From positions 1 to 61,366 of the forward strand of contig JARGPH010000003.1 of the NCBI GenBank assembly GCA_029213065.1: a DNA stretch of 61,366 nt. Direction: 5' to 3'. Under the pieces are notes generated by a model. The model was not told the DNA's origin and ran no database searches. It saw only the letters and a list, made by a program, of their open reading frames with translations. Of this stretch, positions 2 through 59,878 are shown one piece after another (position 1 is the stretch's first letter; every line of letters starts with the position of its first letter). Made by a program: the position numbers and the translations under genes. The stretch is from Verrucomicrobiales bacterium. GTDB lineage: Bacteria > Verrucomicrobiota > Verrucomicrobiia > Verrucomicrobiales > DEV007.

Positions 2-3000
2 TTGCTTGCGGGTGATGCTGCTCTCAAGGGGCTGTGGCGCATGGAAGAGACCGGCGGGACTGCGGTGACTGCCACCGACGATCAGGTCTGGGATGCATCC
101 GGAAACGACGGGCACGGCACCTTGATCAATGGTGCCGTCGCGAATGGTAAGTTGGAGCTCGATGGGAGCAATGATTATCTCGAGATAGGCACCGTGGGTG
201 ACCTGGGGATCAATGGAAGTTTTACCGCAACTGCTACGATTAACTTGAGTGACCTCAGTGGAGATCAAACGATCTTCGGAACGAATCGCGCATCGGCGAA
301 TGAGGGGCTCCATCTCGTGATCCGGGCAGGCCAGCCTCGCTTCGGGTTTTACAGCAACGACACCAGCAGTTCGATGTTGTTGAACATCGGACAGGAGTAT
401 CAGATCACGTTCCGTTACGATGCGATCGCTCAGACGCAGACGATTTTTGTCGATGGAGTGCAAATTGCACATGGAACCGGAAAGCCGGCGTTTTTGGGGC
501 CTGCGACTGACATCGTTCAGATTGGTAAGTGGAACGGCGGCAGCGAGTTCACCGGTTCGATTGATAATGCCGCCATCATCGGTCGGGCGATGACTGATGT
601 CGAGATTGCAGCGCTTTACAACTGTGTCGCCGCTCCGGTGGAGACCACCGCAACGTTGACGGTAAACAATGTCGCACCGGTGGTGACACTGGATCCGATG
701 TCTTCGATTGATGAAAATGGCATCGCGACTCTCAGTGGCACTATCTCCGATCTCGGACGTCTTGACAGTCATGAAGTGACAATCAACTGGGATGATCCTA
801 ACGACACCGCTGACGCCGTCTTTGATCTCGCGGCACTCTGGGTCGTTGATACGATCGACGGAAAGACAACTGCAAGTCTCGTCTCGGGAAGCGTAACGGC
901 GGCGAACGGGGATTTACTCGTGATTACAGTGGACAGCGGCACAGGTGAAATTTCCTTCAGTGTAACGCACCGGTATTACGACGACGATCCTTCGGGAACG
1001 TTTGGTGACGATGTTGTCGTCGGCGTGACGGTGAAGGATGATGACAATGCGAGCGTTTCCGATACGGTCGGTTTGCATATCAATGACGTCGCCTCGACCG
1101 TGACGCTGGATGCACCGGGTGCAACTACTGAGAACGACACGCTTACCCTGACAGGTAGCTACACAGATCCCGGATTGCTTGATACTCAGACACTCGTTTT
1201 GAACTGGGGAGATGTCAGTGATACGGCCCCGGCCACGTTCGCTATTAACAAGGCAATCAAACAGATTGCGAACGCCGGCAACGGAACCCTTGTGAGCTGG
1301 CTCGCGGTCAATGATACCTTTTCCAGCAGCACGGACGGTTCGGTTCTGACGATTACGGGGATTGATGATACGACGGGAACGGTGACGTTTTCGATTACAC
1401 ACCGGTATCTTGATGATGGCCCGAGTGAATCAATCTGGGCACCTGCCACTCCTGCGGGCAACGGAACCGCTTCAGATGATTTCGTGATTTCTGCAACAAT
1501 CGTTGATGATGATTCGGTGACGGCTGGGACGCTGGCACAGTGGAATTTCCCTGTCCTCGGGCAGTTTAACGCGGGCGGCATTGCCCCCGGGCTCACAGCC
1601 GGGGAAATAACCAACTCGGCGGGAACATCGATTTTCTCCGAGTCGCCATCGCCTGCTTATCCAAGTGCACCGGTACTTAGGGTCAGTCCCGGAAACGGCT
1701 CCACTACGGTAGCTGAGGCAGTGGCGGAGGGGCGTTATTTTGAATTTACGGTGACCCCGGACAGTGGGATGCAGATGGATTTGTCTGCATTGACCTTTGA
1801 TGCTGGACGCGGTGGTATCTCTGCATTACGCGGATGGGGAATTGCGACCAGTGTCGATGGATACGCAACGGTGATTGACAGCTCGGAGCCGGGGGGCGTC
1901 CCTGCTCAGCGTCCTGACATGACGCCTTTTTCCATCGATCTGTCGGGAGCCGAATATCAGGGCCTAAATGGACCGGTTACTTTCAGGGTTTATGTTTATT
2001 CACCGACTGGCGGGAACACAATCGAGTTTGATAATTTCAACCTCGAAGGAGTTGTTAAGTCTGGTTCGAATGAAGTGACCCTCACGGTCAACAATGCGGC
2101 TCCAGCCGTAACCCTTGATCCGATTTCCGGCATCGATGAAGCGGGGATCGCCACGATTACCGGTAGTGCCAGTGATGCCGGCTCACTCGACAGCCATCAG
2201 GTGACAGTCAATTGGGGCGACCCTAATGATGCCACTGATTCTGTGTTTGATCTCGGTTCTGTGCGGCTCGTTAACAGCAGCGATGGCACGACTTCTTTCA
2301 ATCCTCTGATGGAGGCCGGCGACACCTACACGTCTACGAGCGGCGATGGAGCCGTGCTCACGATTAATTCGGTGGCGCTGGACGGCTCGTTTACTTTCAG
2401 TGTGACCGGACACCAGTACATCGATGATGATGTGGCTGGAACTCCGAGTGATGACTACACGGTGACGGTAACGATTACCGATGATGATACCGGCGTCGGC
2501 AGCGACACCGAAGCTATCACGGTTAGCAATCTCGCACCTGAACCTGAGCCCGATTTTTACACGACAACGGAAGCGGCTGTGTTGACTATCTCTACACCCG
2601 CCGCCGGGGTTCTCGGGAATGACAATGACGCGGCCAATCCAAACGGTCCGCTTACGGCACCGCTTCACGATCCACTGAGCGTAGCCGGTATTGATACCTC
2701 GGCTACGAAAGGCATCGTGACGATGAACGCTGACGGCACTTTCAGCTACGATCCCAATGGTCAGTTCGAATACCTCGGGGTGGGGCAGAGCGAGAACGAT
2801 ACCTTTACCTACACGGTAGCCGACAATGACGGCGGCACGACGACGGAAACGGTGACGATCACGGTGACCGGAGTGAATGATGCTCCGGTGGCGGTTGAAG
2901 ATGTCGTGACTGTTTTTGAAGGTGGTCAGGGCGGTTCCGAGACCGTCTCGGGCAATGCACTGGGGAATGACTCCGATGTCGACCAGAGCGGGACACCGGA

Positions 3001-3805
3001 TGATGACGTCATCAGAGTGGTGAATATCAAATTTGAAGGAACTCCGTTCGGAGGGGCGACTCAAGCCGGTGGAGCGGTGAGCTCGTCTGGAACCCTCGTG
3101 AACGGTCTGTATGGAACCCTGTCGATCAATGCGAAGGGTGAGTTTGTCTACACCGTGGATGGCAATCTGCCGACGACGAGGGCGCTGGATACCGGCGACG
3201 TGGGAGTCGAAACTTTTACTTACCTGATCAGTGACGGAAACGGAGGCTTTGACGAAGCGCAGATCGTGGTTCGGGTCGTGGGATCGACCGGAGGCAAGAT
3301 CGGCGAATTCTTCGGAGCGGGCGGATCGGGGATTCTCGAAGGTTTCCGGTTTACGGAACGTCGCAGTGAGGGTGACGGAGGCGTCGGTGAGCCGTTGCTG
3401 ATGTTGATGCCAACGTATTCGGGGAGTGCTGAGCCCGGCTCGGTGATCACCTTGACGGTGATGGGACCTGATGGCTCGACGATGGCGGGAGGCTCGATGA
3501 CGGTGGTAGCGGATCTGTCAGGAAGCTGGATTGCGAAGTTCAGCGGCCTGGAAATCGGGAATTCATCCTACTTTGTGAAAGTGGAGACAGCGGCTCCAGC
3601 CTGGAGCACGGGAGTGAGGGGCTCATTTGAAGTGTTCTTTGCTCCGGCGATCAACGGTTCCCATTCTGAGAGTGATGTCTTGACGGTGGATTCGATTTTG
3701 GGACGTCGTTTGAATTCTGTGGCTTTTGATCAAATGATCGAAGCCAGTGCGCACCCCAATGGCTCGAATGCTGATTGGAGAAAGGCCAATGGCATTCCTG
3801 AGTAA
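2..3805 (+). CDS. Giant-family surface protein, C-terminal 1267 residues (5' end outside window)
   Basis: The frame is open from the left edge, so the true start is not visible. Domain order in the visible part: LamG/concanavalin-like domain (residues ~7-212), three PKD-like repeats (~222-846) with a separate beta-sandwich inserted into the second (~509-686), a cadherin/VCBS-like domain (~847-959), then the C-terminal cassette shared with the two downstream giant genes (~960-1267), ending NADWRKANGIPE. It is probably secreted and could bind carbohydrate or another surface through LamG; that role is inferred from the domain type. No PATR repeats, LPxTG, PEP-CTERM segment or autotransporter barrel is visible. 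It is the first of three same-strand paralogues, with 286 bp to the next start. Its missing N-terminus may carry the LEPR-XLL/peptidase cassette of its neighbours, but this cannot be seen. Confidence 0.9.
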   Translation: MLAGDAALKGLWRMEETGGTAVTATDDQVWDASGNDGHGTLINGAVANGKLELDGSNDYLEIGTVGDLGINGSFTATATINLSDLSGDQTIFGTNRASANEGLHLVIRAGQPRFGFYSNDTSSSMLLNIGQEYQITFRYDAIAQTQTIFVDGVQIAHGTGKPAFLGPATDIVQIGKWNGGSEFTGSIDNAAIIGRAMTDVEIAALYNCVAAPVETTATLTVNNVAPVVTLDPMSSIDENGIATLSGTISDLGRLDSHEVTINWDDPNDTADAVFDLAALWVVDTIDGKTTASLVSGSVTAANGDLLVITVDSGTGEISFSVTHRYYDDDPSGTFGDDVVVGVTVKDDDNASVSDTVGLHINDVASTVTLDAPGATTENDTLTLTGSYTDPGLLDTQTLVLNWGDVSDTAPATFAINKAIKQIANAGNGTLVSWLAVNDTFSSSTDGSVLTITGIDDTTGTVTFSITHRYLDDGPSESIWAPATPAGNGTASDDFVISATIVDDDSVTAGTLAQWNFPVLGQFNAGGIAPGLTAGEITNSAGTSIFSESPSPAYPSAPVLRVSPGNGSTTVAEAVAEGRYFEFTVTPDSGMQMDLSALTFDAGRGGISALRGWGIATSVDGYATVIDSSEPGGVPAQRPDMTPFSIDLSGAEYQGLNGPVTFRVYVYSPTGGNTIEFDNFNLEGVVKSGSNEVTLTVNNAAPAVTLDPISGIDEAGIATITGSASDAGSLDSHQVTVNWGDPNDATDSVFDLGSVRLVNSSDGTTSFNPLMEAGDTYTSTSGDGAVLTINSVALDGSFTFSVTGHQYIDDDVAGTPSDDYTVTVTITDDDTGVGSDTEAITVSNLAPEPEPDFYTTTEAAVLTISTPAAGVLGNDNDAANPNGPLTAPLHDPLSVAGIDTSATKGIVTMNADGTFSYDPNGQFEYLGVGQSENDTFTYTVADNDGGTTTETVTITVTGVNDAPVAVEDVVTVFEGGQGGSETVSGNALGNDSDVDQSGTPDDDVIRVVNIKFEGTPFGGATQAGGAVSSSGTLVNGLYGTLSINAKGEFVYTVDGNLPTTRALDTGDVGVETFTYLISDGNGGFDEAQIVVRVVGSTGGKIGEFFGAGGSGILEGFRFTERRSEGDGGVGEPLLMLMPTYSGSAEPGSVITLTVMGPDGSTMAGGSMTVVADLSGSWIAKFSGLEIGNSSYFVKVETAAPAWSTGVRGSFEVFFAPAINGSHSESDVLTVDSILGRRLNSVAFDQMIEASAHPNGSNADWRKANGIPE
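20..640 (+). other. LamG / concanavalin A-like lectin domain
   Basis: The encoded segment has the usual LamG_3 order: LKGLWRMEE and GNDGHGTLINGA at the start, then LELDGSNDYLEIG, a central IFGTNRAS strand, YQITFRYD followed by IFVDGVQIA, and a closing FTGSIDNAAIIGRAMT. LamG_3 domains are jelly rolls found in secreted proteins that bind or cut glycans. The beginning may lie just left of the window. Confidence 0.75.
665..2540 (+). repeat. Three PKD/Ig-like repeats (third-order tandem, second one interrupted)
   Basis: Three related units of about 140 residues begin at APVVTLDPMSSIDE (~677), STVTLDAPGATTE (~1091) and APAVTLDPISGIDE (~2099). Each has a VNWGDPND-type strand, an FSVTHRYxDDDP strand and an end of the form VTVxDDDxxxxSDTxxxxVNN. 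This matches PKD-like beta-sandwiches, which usually act as spacers in extracellular proteins. Units 1 and 3 are contiguous; unit 2 is split by a foreign domain at 1526-2059. Confidence 0.75.
1526..2059 (+). other. Beta-sandwich domain nested inside PKD repeat 2
   Basis: The segment from GTLAQWNFPV to FDNFNLEGVVK resembles the jelly-roll or lamin-tail-like domains common in Verrucomicrobia secreted proteins: RYFEFTVTPDSG, LSALTFDAGRGG, WGIATSVDGY, FRVYVYSPTGGNTIEFDNFNL. It sits between DDDSVTA and SGSNEVTLTVNN, which together form the closing strand of the PKD-like repeat seen uninterrupted in units 1 and 3. Its binding partner is unknown. Confidence 0.6.
2541..2879 (+). other. Cadherin/VCBS-like domain
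   Basis: The encoded segment runs from EPDFYTTTEAAVLTIS through GVLGNDNDA, KGIVTMNADGTFSYDPNGQF and DTFTYTVADNDGGT to VTGVNDAPV. This is the usual pattern of the bacterial cadherin-like (VCBS, Cadherin_5) tandem domains of large adhesins, which act as stalk modules and often bind calcium. Confidence 0.75.
2880..3805 (+). repeat. C-terminal cassette, copy 1
   Basis: This cassette of about 308 residues is present at the end of all three giant genes (also 32508-33434 and 58946-59878). In order it has a VCBS-like domain (VFEGGQGGSETVSGNAL to VDGNLPTTRALDTGDVGVET), a linker GKIGEFFGAGGSGILEGFRF, an Ig-like domain (SGSAEPGSVITLTVMGPDG to YFVKVETAAPAW) and a tail FEVFFAPAINGSHSESDVLT to DWRKANGIPE. 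The three copies differ mainly at third codon positions, which indicates selection on the protein. It may be a cell-surface sorting or anchoring end; that is inference. Confidence 0.85.
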
Positions 3806-4042
3806 GCTTTTGCTTTGAAACGAGCCATTCATTCTTCGAACGGGGCGATTCGGATTCACCGAGTTTGGTTGTAAGTGGTTCGAAACGGGGATTTTGCGTC
3901 AATTTTTCAGTCACAGAATCGCCCGATAGGGCAATAACTGGTGGTAAAGCCTGTCAAGGTTAGTTGCGATTTTGCGAATCATTCTTGATTGATGTGACGT
4001 ATTTGTTATGTATGTCGCTTCTGAACAAAACGCCTTGAATAA
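3806..4042 (+). other. Intergenic region between giant genes 1 and 2
   Basis: No gene is visible. The stop codon is followed by a weak 4-bp hairpin (AAGC TTTT GCTT, 3804-3815). A 9-bp inverted repeat, GGGCGATTC at 3843-3851 and GAATCGCCC at 3916-3924, has a 64-nt loop and could form a long-range stem. An imperfect direct repeat, TTCGAACGGGG (~3834) and TTCGAAACGGGG (~3880), is also present. None is a convincing intrinsic terminator. Confidence 0.35.
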
Positions 4043-4091: not shown

Positions 4092-7000
4092 ATGAAGCAA
4101 ACGACTTCCTCCCGTCGTAAGCGCTGGTTTTTTGCCCGTTCCATGGCTCGCGCCTATCAGGAATGGCTTGAGAAACGCACTCGAAACGGCAAACGTATCG
4201 GCCTGAAATCCGTCAAGGCGAAATCTCGGCCATTATTCGCAGAAGCCCTCGAGCCGAGGGTATTGTTTTCAGGGACACCGGTGCCGGTGGAACAGATTGA
4301 GGGTCAGGACGAGGCCGCGCAGCAGGAGGTTGCCGCTCAGACAGCAGAGTTGCTGGAATCGGACATTGAAGGGATCGCTGAATTCTCGTTTGACGAGAAT
4401 ATTGAGGCTGATTTTACTGAAGAGGATTTGGACCGTCTTGCCGCTGAGGCATTAGCTCGATGGGAGGAAACAGGGCTGACGGCAGAGCAGCTCGAGGCAC
4501 TTGAGAATATCACATACGTGGTGACCGATTTGGAGGAGTCGGAGATCGGCGCGGCGAAGGGGAATTCGATCTATCTGGACTACAACGCGGCGGGGGCGGA
4601 TTGGTTCGTCGATGATACGGAGTGGCTCGATGAGGAATTTGTTGAGATTGGCGGCATTCTTCGTGCCGCAAGCGGGGCCGATATAGACGGATTGGCCTCA
4701 GATGGAGTCGACATGCTCAGCGTGCTTATGCACGAGCAGGGCCATATTCTCGGGTTGCTCGATGAGTATGAGCTGGGGCTGAGGGATTCGTCGATGTATG
4801 GGCTTTTTGATGAGGGTGAACGGCGGATTCTGAGTGAGGGGCAAGCCGAAGGAAGTGAGGCGTTGAGTTTGGAAGGCGCGCATTTTGCTCATACCGGGTT
4901 GGCTCAGGTAACTGTCACCAATCAAACGGAATGGAATACCTTTGCCGCAACAATCGGCGCTGATCCCGTTACCGGGGCATTGCAGGAAGTTATCTTCGAC
5001 GGTGCGGGCACAATCAATGTGACCGGCAACGTCACGGTCGGTGCTCTTCATTTTAAAACCGCCACGACCTTGAATGGCGGCACGATTACCTTAGCCGGTG
5101 CCGTGAATGGTGCGATTCAGGCTGATGCTGAATCGACGATCAACACTACCTTGGCAGGAGCGGTGGGACTCACCAAGACAGGTGACGGTGTCCTGACACT
5201 CTCCGGAGCAAACACCTACACTGGTACCACTACCATCGCTGCCGGAATCGTTCAGGCTGATGAAGCAGACGTGGCAGGCACTTCGGGAGCGCTCGGCAAC
5301 GGCGGCGATATCACTTTTACAGGCGGAACACTTCGATACACTGCCAACAGTGCGGGGACCGACTACGGCTCCCGGATTGCGGATAGCACCAACGCTATCA
5401 CATTGGACACTAATGGGCAGAACGTTACGTTCGCTACCACCCTCGCGACCTCCAATACCGGCGGCGCAGTCAAACTGGGCGATGGAGAGTTGGATCTTAA
5501 AATGGGGGACGCTGGTAACTACGACGGAACTACTGCTGTTGATGGAGGCACTCTGCGGTTTACCACTTTGGTGGTTGACTCAAATATCACCTCCGATTCG
5601 TTCTTTATTAATAATGGTTCGACTTTGGAATTTCTATCCGCCCAGGGTCGCACGTTCCTCAACACCAAAGCCTTCACGTTTGACAGTAATGGAGGCGGGA
5701 CCCTCAATCTTGACGATGGCAACTTTATCTTCAGGAACGGTTCGATAACAACTTCTGGCGGGGCCAAAAATGAAGTCTCCTCGACGAACGGAGGAATTTT
5801 CAACATGCAGGGAAGGAACGTGACCTATAATGTCGCAGACGGTACAGACCCCGTCGACCTTGAAATATCGGCAAGATTGTTTAGAGGCGAAATTACGAAA
5901 AATGGGGATGGCACAATGGCGATCACCGCATCTACTACTGGAAACGCTGAGAAAATTGCAATCAATGCAGGCGCCCTTGAAATCGGAGCAGGCGCAAATC
6001 TTTCGGCTGGTTCCTTTGACGCCGGCATTACCAACAATGGCATTTTCAGGTATAACAGCACCGCAGACCAGGCAATTACCGGTGTCATCAGCGGCGCAGG
6101 CTCTCTTGAGAAGGGCAATACCGGCAGTCTGACCTTGAGCGGCGCAGCTGCCAACACGTATAGCGGTGGCACATTACTCGCAGGAGGAACGCTGCAGGTG
6201 GAACACAACGCTGCGCTTGGCAGCGGGACGGTGACGCTTACCGACGACGGTGGCGGAGCGAATGAAGATCCGGTGCTTTCCCTGGTTGGCGGACTCACTA
6301 TCGCGAATGATTTTGTGATCAGCGATGACGGCGATAACAAAACGATTGAACTGATCGACGCTGGTGCGGGTTCCACGACCCTGACGGGAGATTTCACGAT
6401 TGATGAAACAGTTCCGGCGAATTTTGATATCGTAACTGGGGATCAGGATGTGTTGACCCTCTCAGGGGACATCAGTGGTGTCGGTGGAATTACCGTTCTC
6501 AAAGTGGACAGCGATGCCGGAACACTCGTGTTGTCAGGAAATAATACTCACGGGGGGACAACTCTCCAAAACAACCGCACGAAAGTACGTGCGGAAAGCG
6601 CCACCGCGCTGGGATCGACCCTGTTTTTTGAAGGCGGTGCGACCGTTTTGGAAATCGCCGATGGAGTGACTTTGGCTGGATCGACATCCATTCAAGTGAC
6701 TGATGCCGGGAATTCCAAGAAAATCCGCCTGACTGATATCGGAGGAAGCACCGGTGGCATCGCCGGTGCAATCACCATTTTAGAAGAAGACAGCGGGAAT
6801 TTTGAAATCGAAGTGGTCAGCGATGCGGTTTTGACCGTGTCTGGAGTGATCTCGGGAGCGGGAGCAGCCGGTGTTACCAAGGTCGGTGACGGAACTGTGA
6901 TTTTGTCCAGTGCCAACACCTACGACGGCGTCACCACTATCAGCGGTGGTATTCTCCAGATGGGGAATACGCAAGCCCTGGGATCAAACACTGGCAAGAC

Positions 7001-49400: not shown

Positions 49401-52400
49401 ACAAAGGCGGGACCCCAAGTGGTCATACCGGGCCGTCTTCGGATCATACCACGGGGACCTCCACGGGGACCTATTTGTATGTGGAAACGTCGTCACCGGG
49501 AGAAGGGGAATTTGCGAGGCTGCTTTCTCCCGTGCTGGATCTCACCGGTGAGACCAATACCTCGGTGGAATTTTTCTATCACATGTACGGGGAGCATATC
49601 GGTGAGCTGATCGTGGAAGGAAGTTCTGACGGAGGCGCGACCTGGACAGCGTTTCGTGTCTTCTCAGGTGAGCAGGGTAACGAATGGAAAAAGGCAACGA
49701 TTGACCTTTCGCAGTTCGACAATGAAGGCGCTTTTCAGCTGCGGCTCACCGGAGTGCGCGGCGATGGGTATCAGGGCGATATATCGCTGGATGATTTCCG
49801 TTTCTTCGCTGACAGCGGAGATTTGCTGGTTGAGGATTTCGAGAACGATACGGAATTCGGGCAGGGGCCGACGAGCGGTGCGCGACCTCAGCAGACTCTG
49901 GGTGCCGGTTGGGTAAACGTCACGACGAGCGCGGCGGACGAAATCGACTGGATTCCGGATAGTAACGGCACGCCAAGCCCTGATACAGGTCCTGGAGGTG
50001 CCGCCGGTTCCGGAACTGATCACACTACGGGGACTGCGAATGGCATGTATCTCTACATTGAGACATCGAGTGGTGTCGGGGGATCGACTTTGCCTCGTCC
50101 GACCGCTCAGTTGTACTCTCCGGCGATCGATCTCAGTGAACATTCCACCGCGAGTGCGGAGTTCTACTATCATATGTTCGACAACGGTCGGAATGAGATT
50201 GGAACGCTCAATGTCTATGGCAGTGCCGATGGCGGGGTGACCTGGTCAGCAGTTCTTTTCACCGAATCGGGGAGTCAGGGCAATCAGTGGAATCTTGCGA
50301 CGGTCGATTTGAGCAGTTTTGCAGGGAGTGAGAACTTTGTTCTCCGGGTCGAAGGCATTGCCGGAAGCGGCTACGCCGGTGACATCTCGATCGATGATTT
50401 CCGTATCACAGGTGACCCTGTCAGTAACACGACCATCAATATCATTGCGGATACCGATGGTGATAAGAATGGTATTGGCGGAGCTATCACGATGGCTGAC
50501 GGGTCAACGGTTGATGCCGGAAGCGGGAGGGTGACCTTGAGCGCTGATGGAAATATTGTGGTATCGAGCGTATCGACCACGACAACGATTACGGCCACGG
50601 CAACGAGTGGATCAATTCTCGACGGTGGCGACTCCGGAACCGATCTGACAGCGGATATTCTGATCGCAACTGCCGGCAGCGGAGTCGGTGGGGGAGATCA
50701 ACTGGATACCGCCGTCAACAATGTGGAAGCCGATGGAGGAAGTGGTGGCGTAGCGATTGCCAATACCGGGAATCTGACGATCGGTGAATCCGGCGCCGCT
50801 CTCGGTGTCACTGCGGGAGGGACCGTGAACATCACGAGCACGAATGACCTCACTGTTGCTGCAAGCACAACGGTCACAGGTCTCGGCATCAACATGAGTG
50901 CCGGCAATGATCTGAATATTCTCGATGGCTCAACGATCACAGGATTGAATTCAGGGACGCTGGTGCAGGAGGATTTTGAGACCTTTGTTCAGGGGCCTAC
51001 CGGAGCAGGAGCAACCAATATCGCTTTGGGTAACAGTTGGGTGAATGTTCAGGGCACAGATGAGATCGACTGGACTCCGGATGTTGGCGGTACCCCAAGC
51101 GGGAGCACCGGACCGGGAACGGATCATACCACCGGGACCGGTTCCGGAAAATATCTCTACATTGAAACCTCGGACCATGTTTTAACCGGTTCAACGGCTC
51201 AACTTCATTCTCCGACTCTTGATTTGAGTGCGATGGAGAGCGCGAGCCTTGAGTTCTACTATCACATGCTGGGGGTTGATCCGGAAATGGGTTCACTGAA
51301 GGTCTTTGTCAGCACCGACGGAGGAATGACCTGGTCGGGCGAGTTGTTTTCGGTAGAGGCTAATCAGGGGAATGTGTGGCATCAGGCCACTGTTGATCTC
51401 AGCTCTTTTGTCGGGAACTCGCAGGTAGTGGTGCGTTTTGATGGAATTGCGGGTCAGGTCACAGCGGGTGGGGGCGTCGACCCCGGGTATCGAAGTGATA
51501 TTGCGCTCGATGACATTACGATTACGACAGTTCCCTTCGTGAAACTGGAAGCCGGGGGTGGAGCCCTTGCGATGGCGGCAAATTCATCGGTCGATGGTGG
51601 AGACGGTGATGTGCTTCTTTCTGCCGATGGAAATATCACGGTTAACAGTCTTACGACGTCAGGTGATGTCGTGCTTACCTCCGGCAGCGGGGAGATCCTC
51701 GATCGGGGAGTCACTCCGGATATCACAGGAGGAACCGTCACTTTTAATGGAAATGTTGCGCCCGGATTGTCCGGGGTGGGAACCTTGCGGGTTGCCGGAG
51801 ATCTCGATCTCGCGAGCGATGATGTCCTTAGTTTGGCGCTGGACGGATCTGTGCCGGATTCGGGATATGATCAGGTGGTTGTCGAGGGGGCGGTCAGTAT
51901 CGTTGACGCGACCCTGGAATTGAATTTCGGATTTGTTCCGGCGGTTAATTCTACCTTTGTCGTTGTCGACAATGATGGAGCTGACGCGGTGAACGGCACC
52001 TTTCAGTTCACCGATGAAGCGCGCGGACTCGTCGAATTGATTGAAGGCAGCGCTTTCACATCAGGTGGTCTCGTCTACACCATCAGCTATGTGGGTGGCA
52101 CGGGCAACGACGTCGTTCTCACAGCACACGGTGAAGCCGAAACTGAAATTTCAATCGATGGCAGCGGCAACCTTGTGATCAGTGATATCAACAATGAGTC
52201 AGCTGACAATATCCAGATTACGATCGAGAACATCGGGGGCACCGATTACTACGTTATCAAGGACATCAATGCGACACCTCTGGTTTTGACGACGCCGATT
52301 GCCGCTGCGGATGCGAGTCGAATCAGTGAAAGCGAGATTCATGTTCGCGTCGGTGCTGTCACTGCCGGTCTCGATGTCAACACGGCGAATCCGACAGAGG

Positions 52401-58400: not shown

Positions 58401-59878
58401 GGAGTGGTCCGGGGAGTTTGCCCGGGGATGTTCTCAACCTGGTCAATGCGGTCGACGCCGACTTTGATCCGACCCCGGGAGCTACACCCGGCGCTGGAAG
58501 CTACACCTTCGGGGGCGGGCAGCAGCGCATCGATTTCGCTGGAATCGAACATGACAATCTCGCACCGGATATCATCGTTACAGGAACCGATTCAGATCGC
58601 GAGGACCTCACTGAGACCGATGCTCCGTTAACTGTTTCGGGCACACTGACAATACACGATCTGGGGACCGTAAATGCGGCAATCGATTCTGCAGTGGGTG
58701 TCGTGGGAACACCGGATGTTCTTACGAATAGCGATTTCCTTGCGATGCTCACTCTCACGAGCCCGAATCCAATCATTCTTGCCCCGGATACAATTGGCAC
58801 GATTGACTGGACGTTTGACAGCAATACAACGACCTTTGACTTCCTTGCACTGGGGGAAACGCTGACTTTGACCTACACGATTCGGGTAACCGATATCGAT
58901 GGCCGCGAGGACACACAAACCGTGACGATCAAGATCACGGGCACGAACGATGATCCGGTGCTGGCTACTGACGTCGTCACCGTGTTCGAAGGAGCGCAGG
59001 GCGGATCGGAAACGGTGAGTGGGAATGCGCTCGCGAATGACACTGACATTGATATCAACGGTCAGGGCAAAGATGATGTGCTCAAAGTGGTGAACACCCG
59101 CTTTGATGGAACCCCGTTTGGCGGCTCGACTAATCCCGGAGGCGCGGTGGTGCCCGGATCGGTCAGGCAGGTCGATGGTCTCTACGGAACCCTTTCAATC
59201 GATGCCGACGGAAACTTTGTCTACACGGTGGATGGTAATCTGCCGACAACCCGCGCATTGGATACTGGCGACGTGGGAGTGGAAACGTTCATCTATCTGG
59301 TGAGCGATGGAAGCGGTGGTTTCGTCGAAGAGCGGATCGTGGTTCGGGTCGTTGGATCAACCGGAGGCAAGATTGGCGAATTCTTCGGAGTGGGCGGATC
59401 GGGCATCCTTGAAGGGTTCCGGTTTGCGGAGCGCCGCGGCACCGGTGACGGAGGAACAGGCGAGCCGTTGCTCTTGCTGATGCCGACGTATTCCGGCACA
59501 GCGGCGCCGGGATCTGTGATTACGCTCTCCGTGATGGGCGCTGACGGTTCAACCTTGCGGGGCGGGTCGTTGACAGTGGTCGCCGATCTCTCCGGAGCGT
59601 GGATTGCGAAGTTCAGCGGGCTGGAAATCGGGAACACCTTCTACTACGTGAAAGTGGAAACGGCCGCTCCCGCCTGGAGCACCGGGGTGAAAGGCTCTTT
59701 TGAAGTCTTCTTCGCTCCGGCAATTAACGGATCGCATACCGAGACGGATGTATTGACGGTCGATTCCGTCATGGGGCGTCGTTTGAACTCAATCGCACTG
59801 GATGAGCTTATCGAAGGCAATGCTCACCCGAATGGCTCGAATTCCGATTGGAGAAGAGCCAACGGTATCCCGGAATAA
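33668..59878 (+). CDS. Giant LEPR-XLL surface protein with lectin, propeller and MAM-like domains, 8736 residues
   Basis: One open frame of 26.2 kb, paralogous to the gene at 4092. Order: N-terminal cassette (LEPR 57-60; HEQGHILGLLD 218-228; Met239), a YTWDGGGADTDW opening (~271), ConA-like domain (~444-653), beta-helix with an ETAV entry (~812), VYVDG entry (~1823), six-blade SBBP propeller (2432-2796), IYVDDDW entry (~2967), ETEV and ETSV segments, three MAM-like domains (~5208-5960), further PATR units, an NNGTF region, VCBS (~8312-8426) and the C-terminal cassette. About nine PATR cores are visible, far fewer than in its neighbour. No cysteine was noticed. The protein is probably exported and multi-adhesive; partner and secretion route are unknown. 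It converges on the Nudix gene with 23 bp between stops. Confidence 0.93.
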   Translation: MKKTTSDRRKRWFFARSLARAYQEWLEKRTRNYTRSGGRSAAKPVKAKARPLFAEALEPRVLFSGTPVPVEEVQGQDDQAQQAAAAQSAELLDAGIAGLDEFSFDEGIDADFTDEDLERLATEAVARWEKSGLTEEQLEALENITYAVTDLEGARIGAAEGNTVYLDYNAAGWDWFVDDTEWLDEEFVEIDGILRAINGDDIDGLARDGVDMLSVLMHEQGHILGLLDEYEVGLRDSTMYGQFDEGERRIVEDGQAEGSEALSLEGAHYATYTWDGGGADTDWGTAGNWNPDVVPDDFNEWDSFVFEGTAGLSPNVNYAGDGQGYNVNDITFQSDAGAYTITGNKTGGGTITFDMLGGESTSSQGVAEINNYSVETQTLDIGLRHRSEYGEGMLVNAAAGDIVISGNITKLNTTERPITIAGSHTVTFSGNNVYSDPTVVGETILDDFQSYTVANLSSGNPTGGVWNHGATATDQIEDDGGNQFLAFGWEGGNGTTTSRGAYREIPAIVDGGTGVIAFDARVDTDAAAGIWTYGVTDVNAPGLSGGPSGANIRASVSLVSGTVGDGKMDLVAGGATLATGLDINQWYRVEVAIDHSDNTFDVYLDGVRLNQSSIGFDSLTSADLDRFVVVGGGGGSQAQGRFAGHVDNFIAAPSSNLVLNGVHTGGGTYVVSPGSTLSGTGSTDGTVTIASLATLAPGDQSVNGGIGTLTVDGDVTFEAGAILEIEINADGTSDLLKVTSGSAALAGTLVLNVDSAFAGAKIGDEITIVEGATSGGFSNVAEGAEITSEGQAFTVSYSSGGDVVLTYAGLENAETAVSLTGSTLTVADSNTANSDSLTISYDAAENEFVIFDETLAVSSDIVGATQSSMSEVRVSAAGITQIVINSGDGDDTVTLDYSDSTLLGVSVLFNGGGNAAVGDTLVIDNGAFGAVTHNLTAGDSGNLDLDDDGVADVTYTGLEPVDQTGSTMTSLVLNLPAGTDNAQLSMLDATTLRLESTDGVPTFESYNYDITGVTSMMINGDTNDVLTVSNAIDLSADNVDLTFNVGTINLNGGSVNSGTGDQIYNGSVNTGGDVELLGQDIYFQSQLVGSSTVTVDGTETLTVTGNLLFGVPDTNSETTTVTMTGGGALVVNGTNVDVGVRSNDGSLYNTTTVDMSGLASVNANVTNFRVAHDQQNQGTLNLSDTANTIVADIISVSDSAGWNYRNGILRLGGGTNILNADTITLGGSKGTGLLEFAGATGTLMVRGTDGSGAIDLNLGVNINAGTSANTTGTMNLVGHDVDILVDHLVMAHRTVGHPSGGRATGTLSFDQGTVDVNTIDMANRSGNFIDEATATINVGGGTFTVNNTITMTTIGDSGSATATINQTGGIVTVAGGIFDDDTSGSLDANTNGVPDDGSFLNIEGGTFTVTAGGLEVDSLRVGEGGQTATLTVEAGDVVIGESGVGEFNVAYNTNNSGSLTKATVDFSQASSTTIGARDVRIGYSTNSGGQLDGDVLLSIAGTNSLTADQIQIGRTNSGSDQGASATSELHLGGAANNFSVDTFVVGDLKSVGLVDIAVGGTLTLGGKTGSATDLKVGFNNAGGTGTRPDMSTFDLTNGTFNATLDEIIVGLHAGGGSGAGKGTVSFDEGTVTANSVLLADLGTSSAANLTQGILNLGGGTLNLQDGNITKGPGSETFNFTGGTLKDVEIIGFSTVQQGGILQIGSDSESDDTTVQGDFTSDGTIEFNLNGTGGAGVATTGHDQLIVDGTADIGGATLEVHLGYLANPSVDSFTIVSATTAVSGLFKDSLGNDLADGATFESNGARYTIGYTATEVNLTVAAPTTVYVDGDTFTVNGASVDGDQETVGITESAIVGYNAFATINDAIAALGTNSGTIIINSGDYSAEAVDLTTAGTDIDITLQFVEGDSEIGSLATGVSDAVVLGGFDGDHTTGVTLTLGALDNGLKEIKGVISGTGGITKVGTSYLKLSGDNTYSGITTVDQGRLYVGHNNALGAAGGTSKTIVNGADGVTSTFLYLDSATPLTINETLELKATNAGRVTLYANSTQVHTLAGPIDVSSSGLLVQFNSNGSGGMTITGDVTGTMTGGSLFLRGGSNSAANHLQGSVNLSGSSLLKTDDGTWTVGASGSGQTYSWNDTSIARGTVKLGAANILDPARTIRLDQNDDKGATLDLNNFDQTTAGIIFNNGGDPSAGTISTGTGTLTLNGNITYNTVSNTLGGEISGNLNLGGGTRTITVNDSTGSDAELTISAAISNGGIIKAGDGNLILGGSENNTGLSATVNAGTLTLAKTSSGTVHAIDGMGTALTVNTGGTLVVAGSGNDQISDTADVVIDGQLDVTVSETIDALDGSGGVALSTGVTLTVGSDDGSGSFAGVISGDGALTKVGTGTFALDSLTGNTYTGGTTVDGGTLLANNISGSATGPGSSLSAPAFDWAVSGGGTRSEEGRAVAVDGSGNVYVTGIYSGTATFGSTTLTSADSNDDTYIAKLDSAGNYVWAVSGGGTGIDDSQGIVVDGSGNVYVTGRYWLHATFGSIAITSGGDYGTYIAKLDSAGSYEWAVSGGGANYQTSYGIALDGSGNVYMTGIYNAEATFGSTTLRRYGDGFKIFIAKLDSAGNYVWAVGTDGTGDDRVSGISVDGSGNVYVTGNYSGTATFGSTTLTSAGSNDDTYVAKLDSAGNYEWAVGGGGTSDDLGRGISVDGSGNAYVTGAYQGIATFGSTTLTSAGDYDTYIAKLDSSGNYEWAVSGGGTSGDGGLGIAVDGSGNAYVTGVFDGDVTFGDTALTSAGSGDTYIAKLLAGEVAVTVNTNGTLGGTGFIASNVTLNGGTLAPGLNTGADTTNDISSGNLSLTSTSTFTVELGGTTEDTDYDQVDVTGTVDLNSGSAAGGGALLELSFTSGFTPSLGNTFRIVNNDDSDAITTTFRYDTGDGIIELTEGAVFAVDGRIFSITYAGGTDNNDVVLTDATDLSVIYVDDDWAVGGGNPQNPDQMIADADAGTTGAQGAFFGINAFATLADALATVDANGTVIVNTGTYDEAETLSDGITMEITGPNAAGAVTITGLSANAGTAIDIEGNSTLTLGNAANQTIVAVFSGSGDLVKEGTGTLTLSGVDSDATGDTLVKAGILAWGAKDALPSGTVTVESGATVDLTALSGSGSTNSARVYHIAGTGSAGQGALINSSGDIVGSSAAVNGLTLTANATINTPARLDIGGVIDFSTHTLSKIGGSTLAFRAAVTSPNGSLVVDAGRAYIENNNMTLDTITVNDGGRFGMYNYNDNTRTVSADITFNGNSRLSSDTNVEGNAQFAGTIHVNGGTLTIEDNFGSAGNDADIIINSVISGSGTIILDGSNTNSVGDFLELNAANTFSGIVQMTGNGPLTLGNALALQNATLDTGASAGDSLDFGTLTAATFGALTGSDDLVLENASSTAVALSVGNNDTDTTYSGVLSGSGSLTKIGAGTFTVSGMNTYSGDTTINSGILKMGDNSALGDEVGKTVINGGTLDIDGFRAGATGNELIEVQGTGAGGVGAIVNTGSSQTSAFRRITLTDDATFRADSRWDMRDTDGASAFDMGGFTLTKVGLRELSLVSTAILNPGSVNVTQGIFRSEGSTDFDGTGTITVSSGANLDFWSNNQTHEVNVILEGGAILTSSSAATYATTLNGTVTLNGVASIGANQGNTVNQRDLVISGNVVGSGAFNKIGVKSVTLTGSNNTYAGVTTITAGSLFLDGTHTGGDTYTVQSGAVLGGTGTTDADVVINTGSGLSPGVGGIGTLTVQDNLAINGTYTFEINGDISADLTDVTGTVTLGAASILDLDELNAGSDDVNSTITLIANDGSDVVIGTFFNVAEGSTVMDDDNEAYTISYAGGDGNDVVLFAGIAETEVALSGGVLTVSDINAENEDSITISYDGGTDEYVISDPNLILTTTGLSAGQFWRPDANTVRMDAGLVTSVVVNTANPNAATETDMVTILSLPADINGAVTVNAENINVGSDVNADAITFNGAVTLSTDVVLDTSDANGAISITGTITGGSNDLTFTTGAGNGAITGAASGIGHLLLTDTGTIDFQDGLSADTARVGSDSGTANLTVSGGAVVVGDGDGDFEVGRRTSGGGDTTGIVDFSGATTVTVSVTNVLLGTDTTGNGASTGTLTLSTAGANSITATIIQQGLTPSGSNQSNISDLILGGSTNTINVDTWTVGDAKSAGSVGIVAGGSLTLRAADGASRADLNIGVNTSGTGTNPQTSFVDLTGASTIDLLIDDLLIGRHLSTSGSGNGILSFDSGTINADTVTLGLSTGTNPANTTGTINQLGGAFTVISGVSDGGGGSAINLEDGTFTVDSGGFEVDDLLVGKNMGAGILTVNGGDVVVGDGGSQLLIGYRDTATDPGTTTGVVNFANAGSVTIDVTDVWAGYSNLASQASNGSSAGNLTLSFAGNNSVVADNVRLGYTLSASNQGGVRTFLHLGGAMNTFDVDTFVVGDLKSAATVDIVAGGTFELTGNVNVETDLRVGDNDTFNVGATTGTAPQSSLLDLTGGIFNATLDEVLIGLHYGGSGSGKGELRFDAGTVTAASVVLADSDRNGGNSTADANTIGILQLGGGVLDLQGGTFTEGGGTDTFTFTDGTLKDVAIIGFNTTQQGGVLQIGADGEIDETTIQGDFTSDGTIEIELNGIGGAGVATTGHDQLVIDGAAGPGAIDGVVDLDGSILDLTLNFEAMVGQTFVIIDNDGTADAIVGTFTGMPEDHIFELDYMGARYVFQIHYNTEDGSAAGNNVVLESLGVAETSVEIDGSGNLVVSDINNESADLLDISVQNISGTDYYVIKDTNTTPLVLTTGLTAADATQVSASEIHVKVASVTGGVIVGTANPTAATAADAVTVSSLPASIAGDLEIHAETINIGTDITTTGEQTFDGKTTLTADVTLTGTDVTFGDHLNSDSDATRRALVVNTSGSGVTTFGSTAGGVFDLASLITNADGSVVLGGSITTSGSQTYNNAVSLTGNRTLSGNTITLVEAVTIGGSNFTVSGNEIDVLGGIDGGGGNVTFTSNSRGIYVAKDITTSGAGTIKMGSIAGSTPAILLEGDLTTEFGVIELVGRSSSGIAVQLSDSDVTTSGSGGNIRITGRTSGSSSAVQLDIDATSSVIAADGSISLKTISGDANIGGEINSGAHTLILESGADLNLNDVTVVGGAIDLLADNDVNITSGTSITGPAATLGNVVLLSENFEGFTQGSTTPFFNEVALDNGWVNLHRETLDFVSDKGGTPSGHTGPSSDHTTGTSTGTYLYVETSSPGEGEFARLLSPVLDLTGETNTSVEFFYHMYGEHIGELIVEGSSDGGATWTAFRVFSGEQGNEWKKATIDLSQFDNEGAFQLRLTGVRGDGYQGDISLDDFRFFADSGDLLVEDFENDTEFGQGPTSGARPQQTLGAGWVNVTTSAADEIDWIPDSNGTPSPDTGPGGAAGSGTDHTTGTANGMYLYIETSSGVGGSTLPRPTAQLYSPAIDLSEHSTASAEFYYHMFDNGRNEIGTLNVYGSADGGVTWSAVLFTESGSQGNQWNLATVDLSSFAGSENFVLRVEGIAGSGYAGDISIDDFRITGDPVSNTTINIIADTDGDKNGIGGAITMADGSTVDAGSGRVTLSADGNIVVSSVSTTTTITATATSGSILDGGDSGTDLTADILIATAGSGVGGGDQLDTAVNNVEADGGSGGVAIANTGNLTIGESGAALGVTAGGTVNITSTNDLTVAASTTVTGLGINMSAGNDLNILDGSTITGLNSGTLVQEDFETFVQGPTGAGATNIALGNSWVNVQGTDEIDWTPDVGGTPSGSTGPGTDHTTGTGSGKYLYIETSDHVLTGSTAQLHSPTLDLSAMESASLEFYYHMLGVDPEMGSLKVFVSTDGGMTWSGELFSVEANQGNVWHQATVDLSSFVGNSQVVVRFDGIAGQVTAGGGVDPGYRSDIALDDITITTVPFVKLEAGGGALAMAANSSVDGGDGDVLLSADGNITVNSLTTSGDVVLTSGSGEILDRGVTPDITGGTVTFNGNVAPGLSGVGTLRVAGDLDLASDDVLSLALDGSVPDSGYDQVVVEGAVSIVDATLELNFGFVPAVNSTFVVVDNDGADAVNGTFQFTDEARGLVELIEGSAFTSGGLVYTISYVGGTGNDVVLTAHGEAETEISIDGSGNLVISDINNESADNIQITIENIGGTDYYVIKDINATPLVLTTPIAAADASRISESEIHVRVGAVTAGLDVNTANPTEGGATDSVTISSVLAFAGAVEINAETINLNSNLTGTTQTYTGAIVLGASVELDATTLTVNGSIDLGAHTLTADVSTGTSSINGSVSGTGNFTKQGAGRLDLAGTVGNTYSGLTTVSAGRLHLNNSGGNAIGGDLDITTGGDLTFGRSHQIVDTAAVTMSGSGSVFNGTASNNGANVTETFASFTVTGGIFNTTSGSSWTITGAGSFTGGADNTIVLGNRGTRLLSFGSLELVDMTSTSGLTANSFAMYGNHASILSTLHVGAGGLTLNNSNLNLRRGGGGTLGSRLILEGDVTTVGSSPSEIREDTAGGTSGIAEIQLGGVAGAAERIFNVASGADLTVSTGISNGAATPGAVRKTGAGNLTFAGRIANTYTGDTNIDAGRLTLDQTAGINAVAGDIFVNTGGILTMLSDNQIADTAGITVDGGAISSWHTDETFAFYTQNSGGLPSSGNDGQVVVTGAMTLAGGNLFVINSIPSSTPASWTVGSASLTGADILIGGNNGTGNPTTKLIVGSGGLNMDGRTITLYRGSSGAELILNGDFTGTGTNQILTGNSGAIDPKLDIGSTSHTFDVISGTTTVGMEIVGAGGSMVKSGAGTLVLTDDNTYTGTTSVSAGILRINGTHTGGDNYSISATGTLDGTGTITLASGKTVASTGTGSVAPGSSGIGTLTIQSDDTDSSMAPNTVTLGGELDFQINGNTNADLLDVNGTVTLGGTLELEELTAGTGSVMTGSTILLIDNDGLTDAVDGTFTGLPEGAVVMDDDGDSYVISYTGGDGNDVVLFAGAPETNVGLSGGVLTISDINNESGDQISFTFDASNNEYVITDPNLVISTTGLTAAQVTRPDAYTVRVKASAVTGGVVIETANPTAATATDSVTIGGAGTDAIVFPGALTVNAESIVFDSNVTLGANSSLTGGTATFNAATDLNGDTLSLDLTGGATNSATGNFDITGGRITFLNGSEFINEGVVVHATGDTADFSGTGTVTNNATWTQSATGGGDDNLRFNGAVTFNNAGTYELTGGGDITLGNAGAVFNNSGLLLKSGSDGSDPSFVFDARGTFNNLAGGEVRVTAGRLRVDTGGTSDAASQWNAIGGDIGIGSGASATTAAWTGTFAGTATGTSQIELASPGNSAVGDGNFVIGTGGVTFDISGNGVEWRDASIITQGNAFTNEGIIRIIGTGTNSITGGGSVTNAATGDIDFEVGILALSSDLINNGNIDIETASAKTLNGGSDIVNASGGTINQTDGGSLTLDGGSDIAGQSGSTLNLIDGTLVLTAGNVVSAGQTNLIDVNYSINGAGTFTNESGGTLDLTPDAASSRSLTINNTGGVVNDGLTNYLGNANVTLTGTGSFTNNADFDHQGGGNDNLVLNSSLVFTNSATGTYDILAEGDIQILGTAQFNNSGLFIKTGGGTGAGPTSGIFSGFAPTLGTQGSFNNLTGGTVQSNVGTLHIASTGWNFSDAGATWTANGGDIQLGSGWEGTFTGSSAGGGYVTVTTTTNGAFVDDFTAGAAGVNFDISGGGVLWDNRTIDTALGNITNLDTLRVGPGGTPNLDGGGLLITAIGATTSFDTGAIVTTPGTASLQIDNGGTVTGGGTFVGEVYGASGSLVTTSGNLTLGDSTTNAFNTEGDIVVNAGDTLTLNDSGLAQIGAGTLVKLGGTLNAPNHLTMSAGDEISGGGDVNANVSVNSATVSPGEPGVDNTQTLSTDSVDMGTGTFVVDLDGVSDGDLLNVTGTVDLDDATLSIATAANLVTGSTIVIIENDGSDAVVSTFNGQLEGSVISTGGNDYVISYVGDDGNDVVLFAGTAETHVELSAGGVLEITDIGSDSKNQLSVAYNAAANTYTISEVDPAAVISTTGVTVIGRTANSVTISGVGITAIDIDTTDPGSSIVSVDDSVTVTTNGSLVLAGEIAITSDDITIGDANISSGADIILNAGDHFVLDPDGELAAASGKIEINVDQVGPVDTAGGTVDLSGTVTAGNEVFIEGGSEGDTFNVTPSENSEMNIEGSGPGSLPGDVLNLVNAVDADFDPTPGATPGAGSYTFGGGQQRIDFAGIEHDNLAPDIIVTGTDSDREDLTETDAPLTVSGTLTIHDLGTVNAAIDSAVGVVGTPDVLTNSDFLAMLTLTSPNPIILAPDTIGTIDWTFDSNTTTFDFLALGETLTLTYTIRVTDIDGREDTQTVTIKITGTNDDPVLATDVVTVFEGAQGGSETVSGNALANDTDIDINGQGKDDVLKVVNTRFDGTPFGGSTNPGGAVVPGSVRQVDGLYGTLSIDADGNFVYTVDGNLPTTRALDTGDVGVETFIYLVSDGSGGFVEERIVVRVVGSTGGKIGEFFGVGGSGILEGFRFAERRGTGDGGTGEPLLLLMPTYSGTAAPGSVITLSVMGADGSTLRGGSLTVVADLSGAWIAKFSGLEIGNTFYYVKVETAAPAWSTGVKGSFEVFFAPAINGSHTETDVLTVDSVMGRRLNSIALDELIEGNAHPNGSNSDWRRANGIPE
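34997..35628 (+). other. Concanavalin A-like jelly-roll domain
   Basis: ILDDFQSYTVANLSSGNPTG, GVWNHGATATDQIEDD, GAYREIPAIVDGG, VIAFDARVDTDA, INQWYRVEVAIDHSDNTFDV, YLDGVRLNQ and FAGHVDNFIAAP follow the strand order of secreted lectin/glucanase-like jelly rolls. The PATR-type phrase VTFSGNNVYSDPT runs into it, and LVLNGVHTGGGTYVVSPGST resumes after it, so it interrupts a beta-helix coil. A glycan-binding role is inferred. Confidence 0.6.
39136..39390 (+). other. VYVDGD pectate-lyase-like entry module
   Basis: TTVYVDGDTFTVNGASVDGD, YNAFATINDAIAALGTNSGT, IIINSGDYSAEAVDL and ITLQFVEGD. It opens the beta-helix segment that carries the propeller insertion and resembles the module at 16030 most closely. 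Confidence 0.6.
40961..42058 (+). repeat. Six-blade SBBP beta-propeller inserted into a PATR coil
   Basis: Six tandem units of 61-62 residues (183 or 186 bp) begin with WAV at 40964, 41150, 41333, 41519, 41705 and 41888. Each reads WAVSGGGTxxDxxxGIxVDG, SGNVYVTGxYxGTATFGSTT, LTSAGxxDTYIAKLDSAGNY. This is the SBBP beta-propeller family. The DNA units are very similar to each other. ATA isoleucine codons, GGG and GCG are frequent here and look rarer in the rest of the gene. The block separates GSATGPGSS from VAVTVNTNGTLGGTG, which together read as one ordinary PATR rung. Confidence 0.85.
42568..42840 (+). other. IYVDDDW pectate-lyase-like entry module
   Basis: VIYVDDDWAVGGGNPQNPDQ, INAFATLADALATVDANGTV, IVNTGTYDEAETL and MEITGPNAAGAVTI. 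It follows a NNDVVL closure at ~42528 and is close in sequence to the modules at 8218 and 10867. Confidence 0.65.
49289..49810 (+). other. MAM-like domain 1
   Basis: ENFEGFTQGS, GWVNLHRETLDF, GPSSDHTTGTSTGTYLYVET, ARLLSPVLDL, SVEFFYHMYGEHIGELIV, GEQGNEWKKATIDLS, FQLRLTGVRGDGYQGDISLD and DFRF reproduce the diagnostic MAM pattern (DHT, YLYVET, L.SP, F.YHM.G..G.L, GdIalDD). MAM domains are adhesion jelly rolls known mainly from animal surface proteins and occasionally from bacteria. Confidence 0.75.
49823..50413 (+). other. MAM-like domain 2
   Basis: EDFENDTEFGQGPTSG, GWVNVTTSAADEIDWIPD, GTDHTTGTANGMYLYIET, AQLYSPAIDL, AEFYYHMFDNGRNEIGTL, GSQGNQWNLATVDLSSF and GYAGDISIDDFRI. It is separated from domain 1 by only a few residues, so the two form a tandem pair, and is followed by a return to beta-helix phrases (INIIADTDGDKNGIGGAIT). 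Confidence 0.75.
50960..51540 (+). other. MAM-like domain 3
   Basis: EDFETFVQGPTGAG, SWVNVQGTDEIDWTPD, GTDHTTGTGSGKYLYIET, AQLHSPTLDLSAM, LEFYYHMLGVDPEMGSLKVF, NQGNVWHQATVDLSSF and SDIALDDITI. It sits after NDLNILDGSTITG, equivalent to NDVNITSGTSITG before domain 1. It is followed by ALAMAANSSVDGGDGDVLLS, equivalent to AITMADGSTVDAGSGRVTLS after domain 2. Confidence 0.75.
58601..58945 (+). other. VCBS repeat
   Basis: EDLTETDAPLTVSGTLTIHD, TNSDFLAMLTL, IDWTFDSNTTTFDFLALGET, LTLTYTIRVTD and VTIKITGTNDDPV. It corresponds to 32163-32507 and leads directly into the C-terminal cassette. Confidence 0.85.
58946..59878 (+). repeat. C-terminal cassette, copy 3
   Basis: VFEGAQGGSETVSGNAL, GKIGEFFGVGGSGILEGFRF, SGTAAPGSVITLSVMGADG, FEVFFAPAINGSHTETDVLT and the end DWRRANGIPE. 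It contains a 2-residue longer loop (GGAVVPGSVRQVDG) than the other copies. Confidence 0.85.

Follow-up and report, generated by a model that had tools for sequence, protein, structure and literature searches.

Giant adhesins of the LapA/BapA type are modular, type I secreted proteins with constant ends, a retained N-end, and cadherin or VCBS repeats. A secondary SecA encoded with HlyD, M50-like and GAF-HlyD proteins, and sometimes with an OEP (a TolC-like channel), was described by Kamneva et al. (2015; PMC4452313). As those loci are presented, a homologue of the ATP-binding cassette (ABC) transporter is absent from them and some genomes hold the parts apart; it was suggested that SecA acts as the ATPase instead of an ABC transporter, with the M50 proteins as the membrane part (PMC4452313). 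The passages on this module name no substrate and call its broader role 'completely unknown' (PMC4452313), and neither of the words LEPR and cadherin occurs in the main text of that paper. The passages of PMC12057145 that deal with giant proteins of the Planctomycetes-Verrucomicrobia-Chlamydiae (PVC) bacteria leave SecA unmentioned, and no publication linking giant proteins with an LEPR-XLL motif to a short SecA was found in the open-licence library that was searched. The present analysis concerns a window of 61,366 nucleotides, the whole stretch of DNA analysed, which begins at base 1 of the 278,656-bp contig C52 (G000:C52, positions 1-61366) of the 5.91 Mb genome (G000; 80 contigs, 96% complete) of a marine bacterium whose sequence suggests the order Verrucomicrobiales, and which carries three adjacent giant open reading frames (ORFs), gE, gF and gG.

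The three genes lie on one strand, with intergenic gaps of 286 bp (gE-gF) and 233 bp (gF-gG). All three end in a C-cassette of about 310 residues, made up of a cadherin-like part and then a tail of about 175 residues, and gF and gG begin with a bipartite N-cassette, in which a basic tip of about 75 residues with the LEPR-XLL motif is followed by a metzincin-like protease domain. Giants with such ends are genomically linked to a module composed of a short SecA paralogue (SecA2), an M50-HlyD protein, HlyD adaptors and an OEP, and the phylogeny of SecA2 matches the end type of the cargo. It is probable (roughly 0.65) that the window genes encode giant secreted or surface proteins whose constant ends serve one export route, most likely this module, and whose interiors are variable extracellular cargo. 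The features of the window are as follows.

2-3805, + strand: gE, giant gene truncated 5' at the start of the contig, with 1267 residues readable; Big_9/cadherin domains
2411-3275, + strand: 3' part of gE, with 94% DNA identity to the gD 3' end (contig C80)
2876-3802, + strand: C-cassette of gE, its cadherin-like part followed by the tail
3275-3802, + strand: C-tail of gE (model A4)
4092-33434, + strand: gF, complete giant gene, 9780 residues, PATR-rich interior
4092-4316, + strand: N-tip of gF, with the basic stretch RRKRWFFARS and the LEPR-XLL motif
4248-4274, + strand: motif LEPRVLFSG of gF
4392-4889, + strand: metzincin/matrixin-like domain of gF, placed by alignment with gG; HEQGHILGLLD at 4731-4763
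32505-33431, + strand: C-cassette of gF, tail from about 32907
33668-59878, + strand: gG, complete giant gene, 8736 residues; PATR, beta-propeller and three MAM stretches
33668-33892, + strand: N-tip of gG with LEPR-XLL; LEPRVLFSG at 33836-33862
33953-34477, + strand: metzincin/matrixin-like domain of gG; HEQGHILGLLD at 34319-34351
49361-49804, + strand: MAM stretch, the best of three in the gG interior
58949-59875, + strand: C-cassette of gG, tail from about 59348

The module is found complete and contiguous in G011:C14, in the order HlyD-GAF, M50-HlyD, LEPR/tail giant, OEP, SecA2, HlyD. The stretch giant-OEP-SecA2-HlyD is whole in G005, G044, G023:C157 and G056; giant-OEP-SecA2 is present in G059, G051 and G054 with HlyD unseen or off the contig, and G064 has the stretch with its OEP uncalled and a longer antisense ORF in that place, the loci in these eight genomes having been located via their tail match. 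HlyD, SecA2, OEP and M50-HlyD adjoin a giant with a full tip in G001:C528, with similar arrangements in G028, G011:C19 and G110, while an OEP-SecA-HlyD trio stands between two giants in G025. A tail-bearing giant is followed by HlyD-GAF-like and M50-HlyD-type genes and a SecA paralogue of 620 residues in G455, and G457 has module genes beside a giant.

The genome of the window itself has three SecA_DEAD matches, among them a short paralogue besides the housekeeping SecA. OEP-SecA2-HlyD is encoded at C2:270956-276486 (SecA2 at C2:271831-273780, scoring 916 bits against model A8), the OEP- and HlyD-like genes beside SecA2 scoring 423 and 140 bits by phmmer to genes of G025, and HlyD-GAF and M50-HlyD are encoded at C80:111263-115416, on a contig where a second giant array has its first gene 15 kb away. 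The Pfam matches of the L164 genes of this genome are HlyD_3/HlyD_D23, Peptidase_M50 (7e-5; 22.7 bits, cut-off 27.2) and GAF (0.0062, below cut-off). A second, more distant SecA-type module with M50-HlyD, HlyD-GAF and a SecA of 678 residues (L196; G000:C74:66000-78280) adjoins its own large ORF, which starts with the LEPR-like motif MEQRLLLTA, and is a possible second, parallel channel for giant proteins in this genome.

One HlyD over the family cut-off, with an adjoining C39/ABC transporter gene, is also found on C16 of this genome, and of the seven genomes whose tails are strong (>100 bits), five have such a HlyD (G000, G008, G024, G025 and G029), which would fit export of the giants by the ordinary ABC-type type I system (HlyB/HlyD). 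This explanation is quite unlikely, however, as the HlyD locus on C16 adjoins a large ORF of its own whose C-end is different, an arrangement repeated in G025 and G029, as G004 and G026, which have strong tails and are 95-96% complete, have no HlyD over the cut-off, and as the RTX family is not among the Pfam matches (E<=0.01) of gE, gF and gG.

The link between giants and SecA2 was assessed across 141 genomes. The tail is present in 22 and a SecA2 of at least 700 bits in 31, a cut-off chosen after the list had been seen and lying in a gap between 700 and 642 bits (fragments aside), and all 22 are among the 31 (Fisher 6.7e-19, a figure that ignores kinship among genomes that are related and hence not independent). 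SecA2 lies within 5 kb of an end-cassette match at 14 of 44 places and within 12 kb at 18, and housekeeping secA, at three places on cassette-bearing contigs, is 17, 30 and 116 kb from the cassette; SecA fragments below 700 bits (G015, G012:C395 and G018:C105) are outside the 44 places and 31 genomes and inside the tree. A tree was built from 49 SecA2 sequences, and one of its clades (support 99/98) contains SecA2 from all 10 genomes with a full tip (alignment A3, >80 bits) and otherwise from G006 and G018 only, the full-tip label being given by genome in nine of the ten and by adjacency only at G001:C528. Tip-clade SecA2 is therefore found in 10/10 full-tip genomes vs 2/131 others (Fisher 1.1e-13, assuming that all 141 lie inside the 288 searched). 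SecA2 adjoining cargo of the LFDA/MDWN type and SecA2 adjoining LYSAS cargo form separate clades of their own, a further clade is common to G029 and G023 (LYSAAP-type cargo), and none of 200 shuffles of the cargo labels on the tree gave equal clustering.

In related genomes, the N alignment has matches in 31/141 and the C alignment in 28/141, many of the latter in the cadherin part only, and the ORFs examined were those chosen for an N or C match. Thirteen complete ORFs have a full basic tip (A3 >80 bits), and 12 of them carry the tail at the C-end or no more than about 70 residues from it, including two adjacent genes of G004 that encode 18,540 and 16,800 residues; the sole exception is G001_C528 (4254 residues). 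The first-pass annotation had expected both cassettes to recur at the ends of differing interiors, which these ORFs bear out within the genus, and to do so in tandem arrays, of which the window set and four same-strand genes on C80 are examples. The two ends are nevertheless separable: LEPR and protease go with C-ends of other kinds in G023, G043, G001 and part of G029, and so does LEPR in Alphaproteobacteria. The N-end of gE, the first gene, which the first-pass annotation proposed to read, lies beyond the contig start. Variants of the N-end and of the tail pair by eye, for example the WFFAR tip with the DWR tail, the LYSAAP N-end with the GDIIG type, and the LFDA N-end with MDWN..YEF. The tail is rare beyond the order: 21/387 genomes of the phylum match, and outside the order it is clear only in G455 and G457.

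Beyond this phylum, LEPR giants adjoin the module on plasmids of Alphaproteobacteria. Ten of 125 SecA-matching plasmid records were examined, mostly picked as unlike housekeeping SecA by annotation or match length, and six of them have the module, each with a giant ORF upstream. The module was called by annotation, except for the unannotated Rhizobium WSM1274 plasmid, where it was called by ORFs like those of strain TP5, which has module pieces at the start of its record and is excluded from the count. The Pseudosulfitobacter plasmid giant, annotated LEPR-XLL, comprises 12,918 residues from its coordinates; the other module plasmids are those of Methylosinus, Mesorhizobium ciceri, Alisedimentitalea, Rhodobacteraceae M382 (giant of at least 4238 residues) and WSM1274 (at least 4770 residues). 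LEPR-x-LL is present in all four plasmid giant N-ends that were read, and the tail model has no match in the four plasmid giant C-ends searched; hence the module is more generally accompanied by the N-tip than by the tail. On the Pseudomonas FeN3W, Leaf58 and Miltoncostaea plasmids, SecA has neither the module nor a giant gene beside it. In the Alisedimentitalea giant (L238), LEPR lies in frame upstream of the annotated start, which appears to be placed too far downstream. In public records (L235, L239), the label 'prepilin peptidase' is given to the short SecA, and 'PqqD family protein' or 'site-2 protease family protein' to the M50-HlyD-like gene beside it, so that the module is hidden by its annotation.

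The N-cassettes of gF and gG, put at about 266 residues in the first-pass annotation, are 80% identical across about 270, with a sharp edge at residue 270, where identity falls from 77% to 27% between adjoining 30-residue bins. The LEPR-XLL model NF012209 (cut-off 17 bits) matches gF at residues 51-65 (18.0 bits) and gG at residues 55-69 (18.1 bits) when long pieces are searched, and the gG tip alone at 23.2 bits; it also matches 19/19 N-tips of alignment A3 (E<=1), which leaves out G025_C3_29653, whose C-end is in A4. The tip carries a net charge of +14 in its first 50 residues, and no Sec-type hydrophobic stretch was found in the N-end, where the highest 19-residue mean hydropathy is 0.79. 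The PATR matches in gF and gG could be read as passenger repeats of Sec-dependent (type V) autotransporters with the C-end as translocator, but this is extremely unlikely given an N-end so unlike a Sec signal peptide and given that the Autotransporter beta-barrel is not among the Pfam matches (E<=0.01) of gE, gF and gG.

The second part of the N-cassette is predicted to adopt a matrixin/metzincin-like fold that includes the corresponding motif, and is a putative peptidase. The best AlphaFold model of the N-cassette has a mean predicted local distance difference test score (pLDDT) of 76, with values mostly of 85-97 from residue ~101 on. A VIA search with its N-domain recovered MMP-11 (Z 11.4) and karilysin (Z 11.3), with 121-126 residues aligned (root-mean-square deviation 3.8 at 126), and Foldseek gave E 7e-4 against karilysin. 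HExxHxxG is present in 45/46 N-domain copies, with D mostly at the third ligand position and H in two, and a downstream Met (M239) is invariant across 15 alignment rows. A metzincin-like domain recurs near the C-end of the Pseudosulfitobacter LEPR-XLL giant (L239, near 14816; 81 bits), with HEFNH replacing HExGH. The protease part is also matched on contigs labelled Aquabacterium and Lewinellaceae (L075, L076), reflecting either its presence in other phyla or contamination.

The C-cassettes of gE and gF are 79% and 77% identical to that of gG, so that the three adjacent same-strand genes do share a C-terminal cassette of the length first described, though their ends, like those of gF and gG at the other terminus, are alike at 77-80% identity and not 'identical bookends'. 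A genome search with the last 174 residues of gG recovers the other two window ends at E 1.6e-96 and 1.1e-90. The shared C-end extends over about 320-350 residues for gE, about 560 between gF and gG, and about 750 for two sister genes on C80. The tail has no clear Pfam name, with a weak Big_13 match in 3/20 members only, no relative of the C-cassette was found among PDB sequences at E<=0.01, and AlphaFold reached a pLDDT of 38 on the C-cassette from five alignment rows.

The most likely role of the constant ends, and of LEPR above all, is that of address labels for an exporter driven by SecA and lacking an ABC transporter, because the tail genomes all have SecA2, the tree sorts by end type, and plasmids pair LEPR giants with the module. 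In the proposed mechanism, the LEPR-XLL N-tip, which is basic and not hydrophobic, would be recognised by SecA2, which would then push the chain, and M50-HlyD, the HlyD adaptors and the OEP channel would form the conduit outward. The C-tail might act at the far end as a folding cap, stop or anchor, and the metzincin-like domain could cut near the N-end, either freeing the giant from its tip or processing it at the surface, the cargo being PATR solenoids, cadherin, MAM and propeller domains. We infer from these patterns the export by the module, the reading of a signal, the roles of tail and protease, and the surface location. The single export and processing route of the first-pass annotation is accordingly plausible as one route, with the SecA2 module beside giants, while its surface display and processing keep the standing of suggestions.

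Several findings weigh against this proposal, besides the late choice of cut-off and the kinship of the genomes. The module of the window's own genome is split over C2 and C80 and is not directly beside the array; 26/44 SecA2 places have no cassette match within 12 kb, some of them on short contigs, and some of the 18 near places depend on weak LEPR matches (25-30 bits; G012, G028, G110). In G006 and G018, which have tip-clade SecA2, no full-tip cargo was found. Complete ORFs with LEPR and protease and without the basic tip have a tail in 8/19 cases and none in 11/19; in the tail-less group, the ends of G029_C126 (twice), C128 and C88 are tail-like by eye only, and G023 and G043 have other ends, one of them beside Ns. 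Four of the five AlphaFold models of the N-cassette were poor (mean pLDDT 43-56), and the Foldseek TM-scores of the N-domain are modest (0.35/0.55). The M50 (site-2 protease-like) and GAF parts, moreover, are without a known place in export, and the metzincin domain suggests processing, as if the module were linked to LEPR giants in order to process or assemble them at the envelope with no part in export. Such a role is unlikely, since SecA, HlyD and OEP are export parts of known systems, which is general knowledge and is also argued in the passages on the module in PMC4452313.

Outside the ends the window proteins diverge. At E<=0.01, Pfam reports PATR in gF and gG, the beta-propeller SBBP and MAM in gG, and cadherin/Big_9 in gE, which agrees with the PATR, propeller and MAM contents first assigned to the interiors; LamG and PKD are unreported in gE and lectin in gG, contrary to that assignment. 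The interiors were also described as exchangeable and different, and they do differ without being unrelated: with the ends counted in, 42% of gG is covered by high-scoring segment pairs (HSPs) of >=30% identity to gF, and at >=50% identity the HSPs with any one other gene cover 0-16% of a complete or long gene, a range exceeded by the short fragments gC2 and gE, which are mostly end sequence. The interiors differ yet have repeat modules in common. Two long antisense ORFs on the minus strand, at window positions 12450-14708 (752 residues, inside gF) and 46487-48430 (647 residues, inside gG), are probably by-products of repetitive coding sequence.

The set of giants in the genome comprises seven N-cassettes and seven C-cassettes plus one C-cassette cut at the end of C80. 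The array on C80 consists of four genes on one strand, gA (8432 residues), gB (8933 residues), gC (7197 + 1424 residues flanking a scaffold gap of Ns) and gD, which is cut within its C-cassette. All sister genes whose start is on a contig (gA, gB, gC, gD and gH) have the N-cassette; every gene of the set with a readable start has it, and every gene with a readable stop has the C-cassette, a tally that is a count and no independent test, since the set was recovered by cassette searches. Contig C71 holds an N-end (gH) and C76 a C-end (gI); given a 68-bp overlap between the ends of the two contigs, in repeats and with a single mismatch, the two could be parts of one gene of ~14,700 residues.

Within the genome, pairwise identity is 43-76% among the N-cassettes, and the C-cassettes match that of gG at 76-88% identity. 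Most end pairs are saturated or nearly so at synonymous sites, and the ratio of nonsynonymous to synonymous substitution rates (dN/dS) is 0.06-0.23 where dS is computable, so that the ends are old and under purifying selection and are not recent copies. In gB vs gC, the N-ends are saturated (proportion of synonymous differences, pS, 0.79), while pS is 0.06 in the last 100 codons and 0.35-0.45 in the preceding 300, and the tails of gD and gE have dS 0.17, with 94% DNA identity over 865 bp and unmatched DNA farther upstream. Both pairs bear the sequence signature of recent C-end exchange. Joining C80 to C52, with gD and gE as one gene, was considered and rejected; the DNA upstream of the shared 865 bp differs, and gD and gE are therefore treated as two genes. 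These exchanges, together with the tandem genes and the common repeat modules of the interiors, are also what would be seen if the bookends were leftovers of tandem duplication without an export role, the middles having grown by repeat expansion and the ends not. This is very unlikely, since the ends of most pairs remain conserved as protein despite near-saturation at synonymous sites (dN/dS ~0.1), and since the ends are found again in other species and follow the SecA2 clades.

Among the neighbours, a sulfatase gene and a tryptophan-halogenase-like gene, both ordinary in size, interrupt the C80 array between gA and gB (G000:C80:67734-71181), gH is preceded by genes of exopolysaccharide type (Wzz, sugar transferase), and downstream of gG are a NUDIX-like gene on the opposite strand and a pilin-like gene (names read from the sequence by eye). 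Secretion genes were not found among the scanned genes immediately flanking the arrays. The 260 bp upstream of gB, gC, gF and gG have words in common, variants of TTGCGAATC and CTTGAGTAATT, which suggests a common promoter or leader of separately transcribed array genes.

A more comprehensive proposal, tentative and put at somewhat below an even chance, is that of a dedicated secretion system for giant proteins, in which a SecA paralogue would be the motor, HlyD/M50-HlyD/TolC the exit and LEPR-XLL the signal that is read, with subtypes of tip, tail and SecA2 co-evolving as lock and key, parallel channels in one cell, and tandem arrays swapping cargo between constant ends by recombination. If true, it would provide a function for two orphans, the LEPR-XLL motif and the secondary SecA/HlyD/M50 module of 2015, and would amount to a tripartite route without an ABC transporter, carrying polypeptides as long as ~18,500 residues; sequence would then predict which SecA2 serves which giant, a prediction testable in cultured Alphaproteobacteria. 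Module and giant occur together in the cultured Pseudosulfitobacter sp. DSM 107133, and the laboratory strain Methylobacterium extorquens AM1 is named among carriers of the module in PMC4452313.

Compared with the described systems, the module closely resembles that of Kamneva et al. (2015), with a short SecA, HlyD with weak M50 similarity, HlyD-GAF and sometimes an OEP, the M50 and GAF scores being equally weak, and differs in that LEPR-ended giants are here proposed as its cargo and that SecA2 clades match the cargo end type. The LEPR-XLL domain is represented by NCBIfam NF012209 (LEPR-8K), a model whose name gives no function; the motif here lies within a longer tip, is often followed by the metzincin-like domain, and is often paired with the C-tail. 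That domain shares its predicted fold, HExxHxxG and the downstream Met with the matrixins (M10; karilysin, MMP-11), from which it is distinguished by a third ligand that is mostly D, not H, and by its position at the N-end of giant proteins. LapA/BapA-type adhesins are likewise giant and modular with constant ends, and the BapA/Bap/LapF model NF045619 matches gE weakly, at 55.5 bits against a cut-off of 180 bits, but the RTX family is unmatched in the window giants, for which SecA, and not an ABC transporter, is proposed as the motor.

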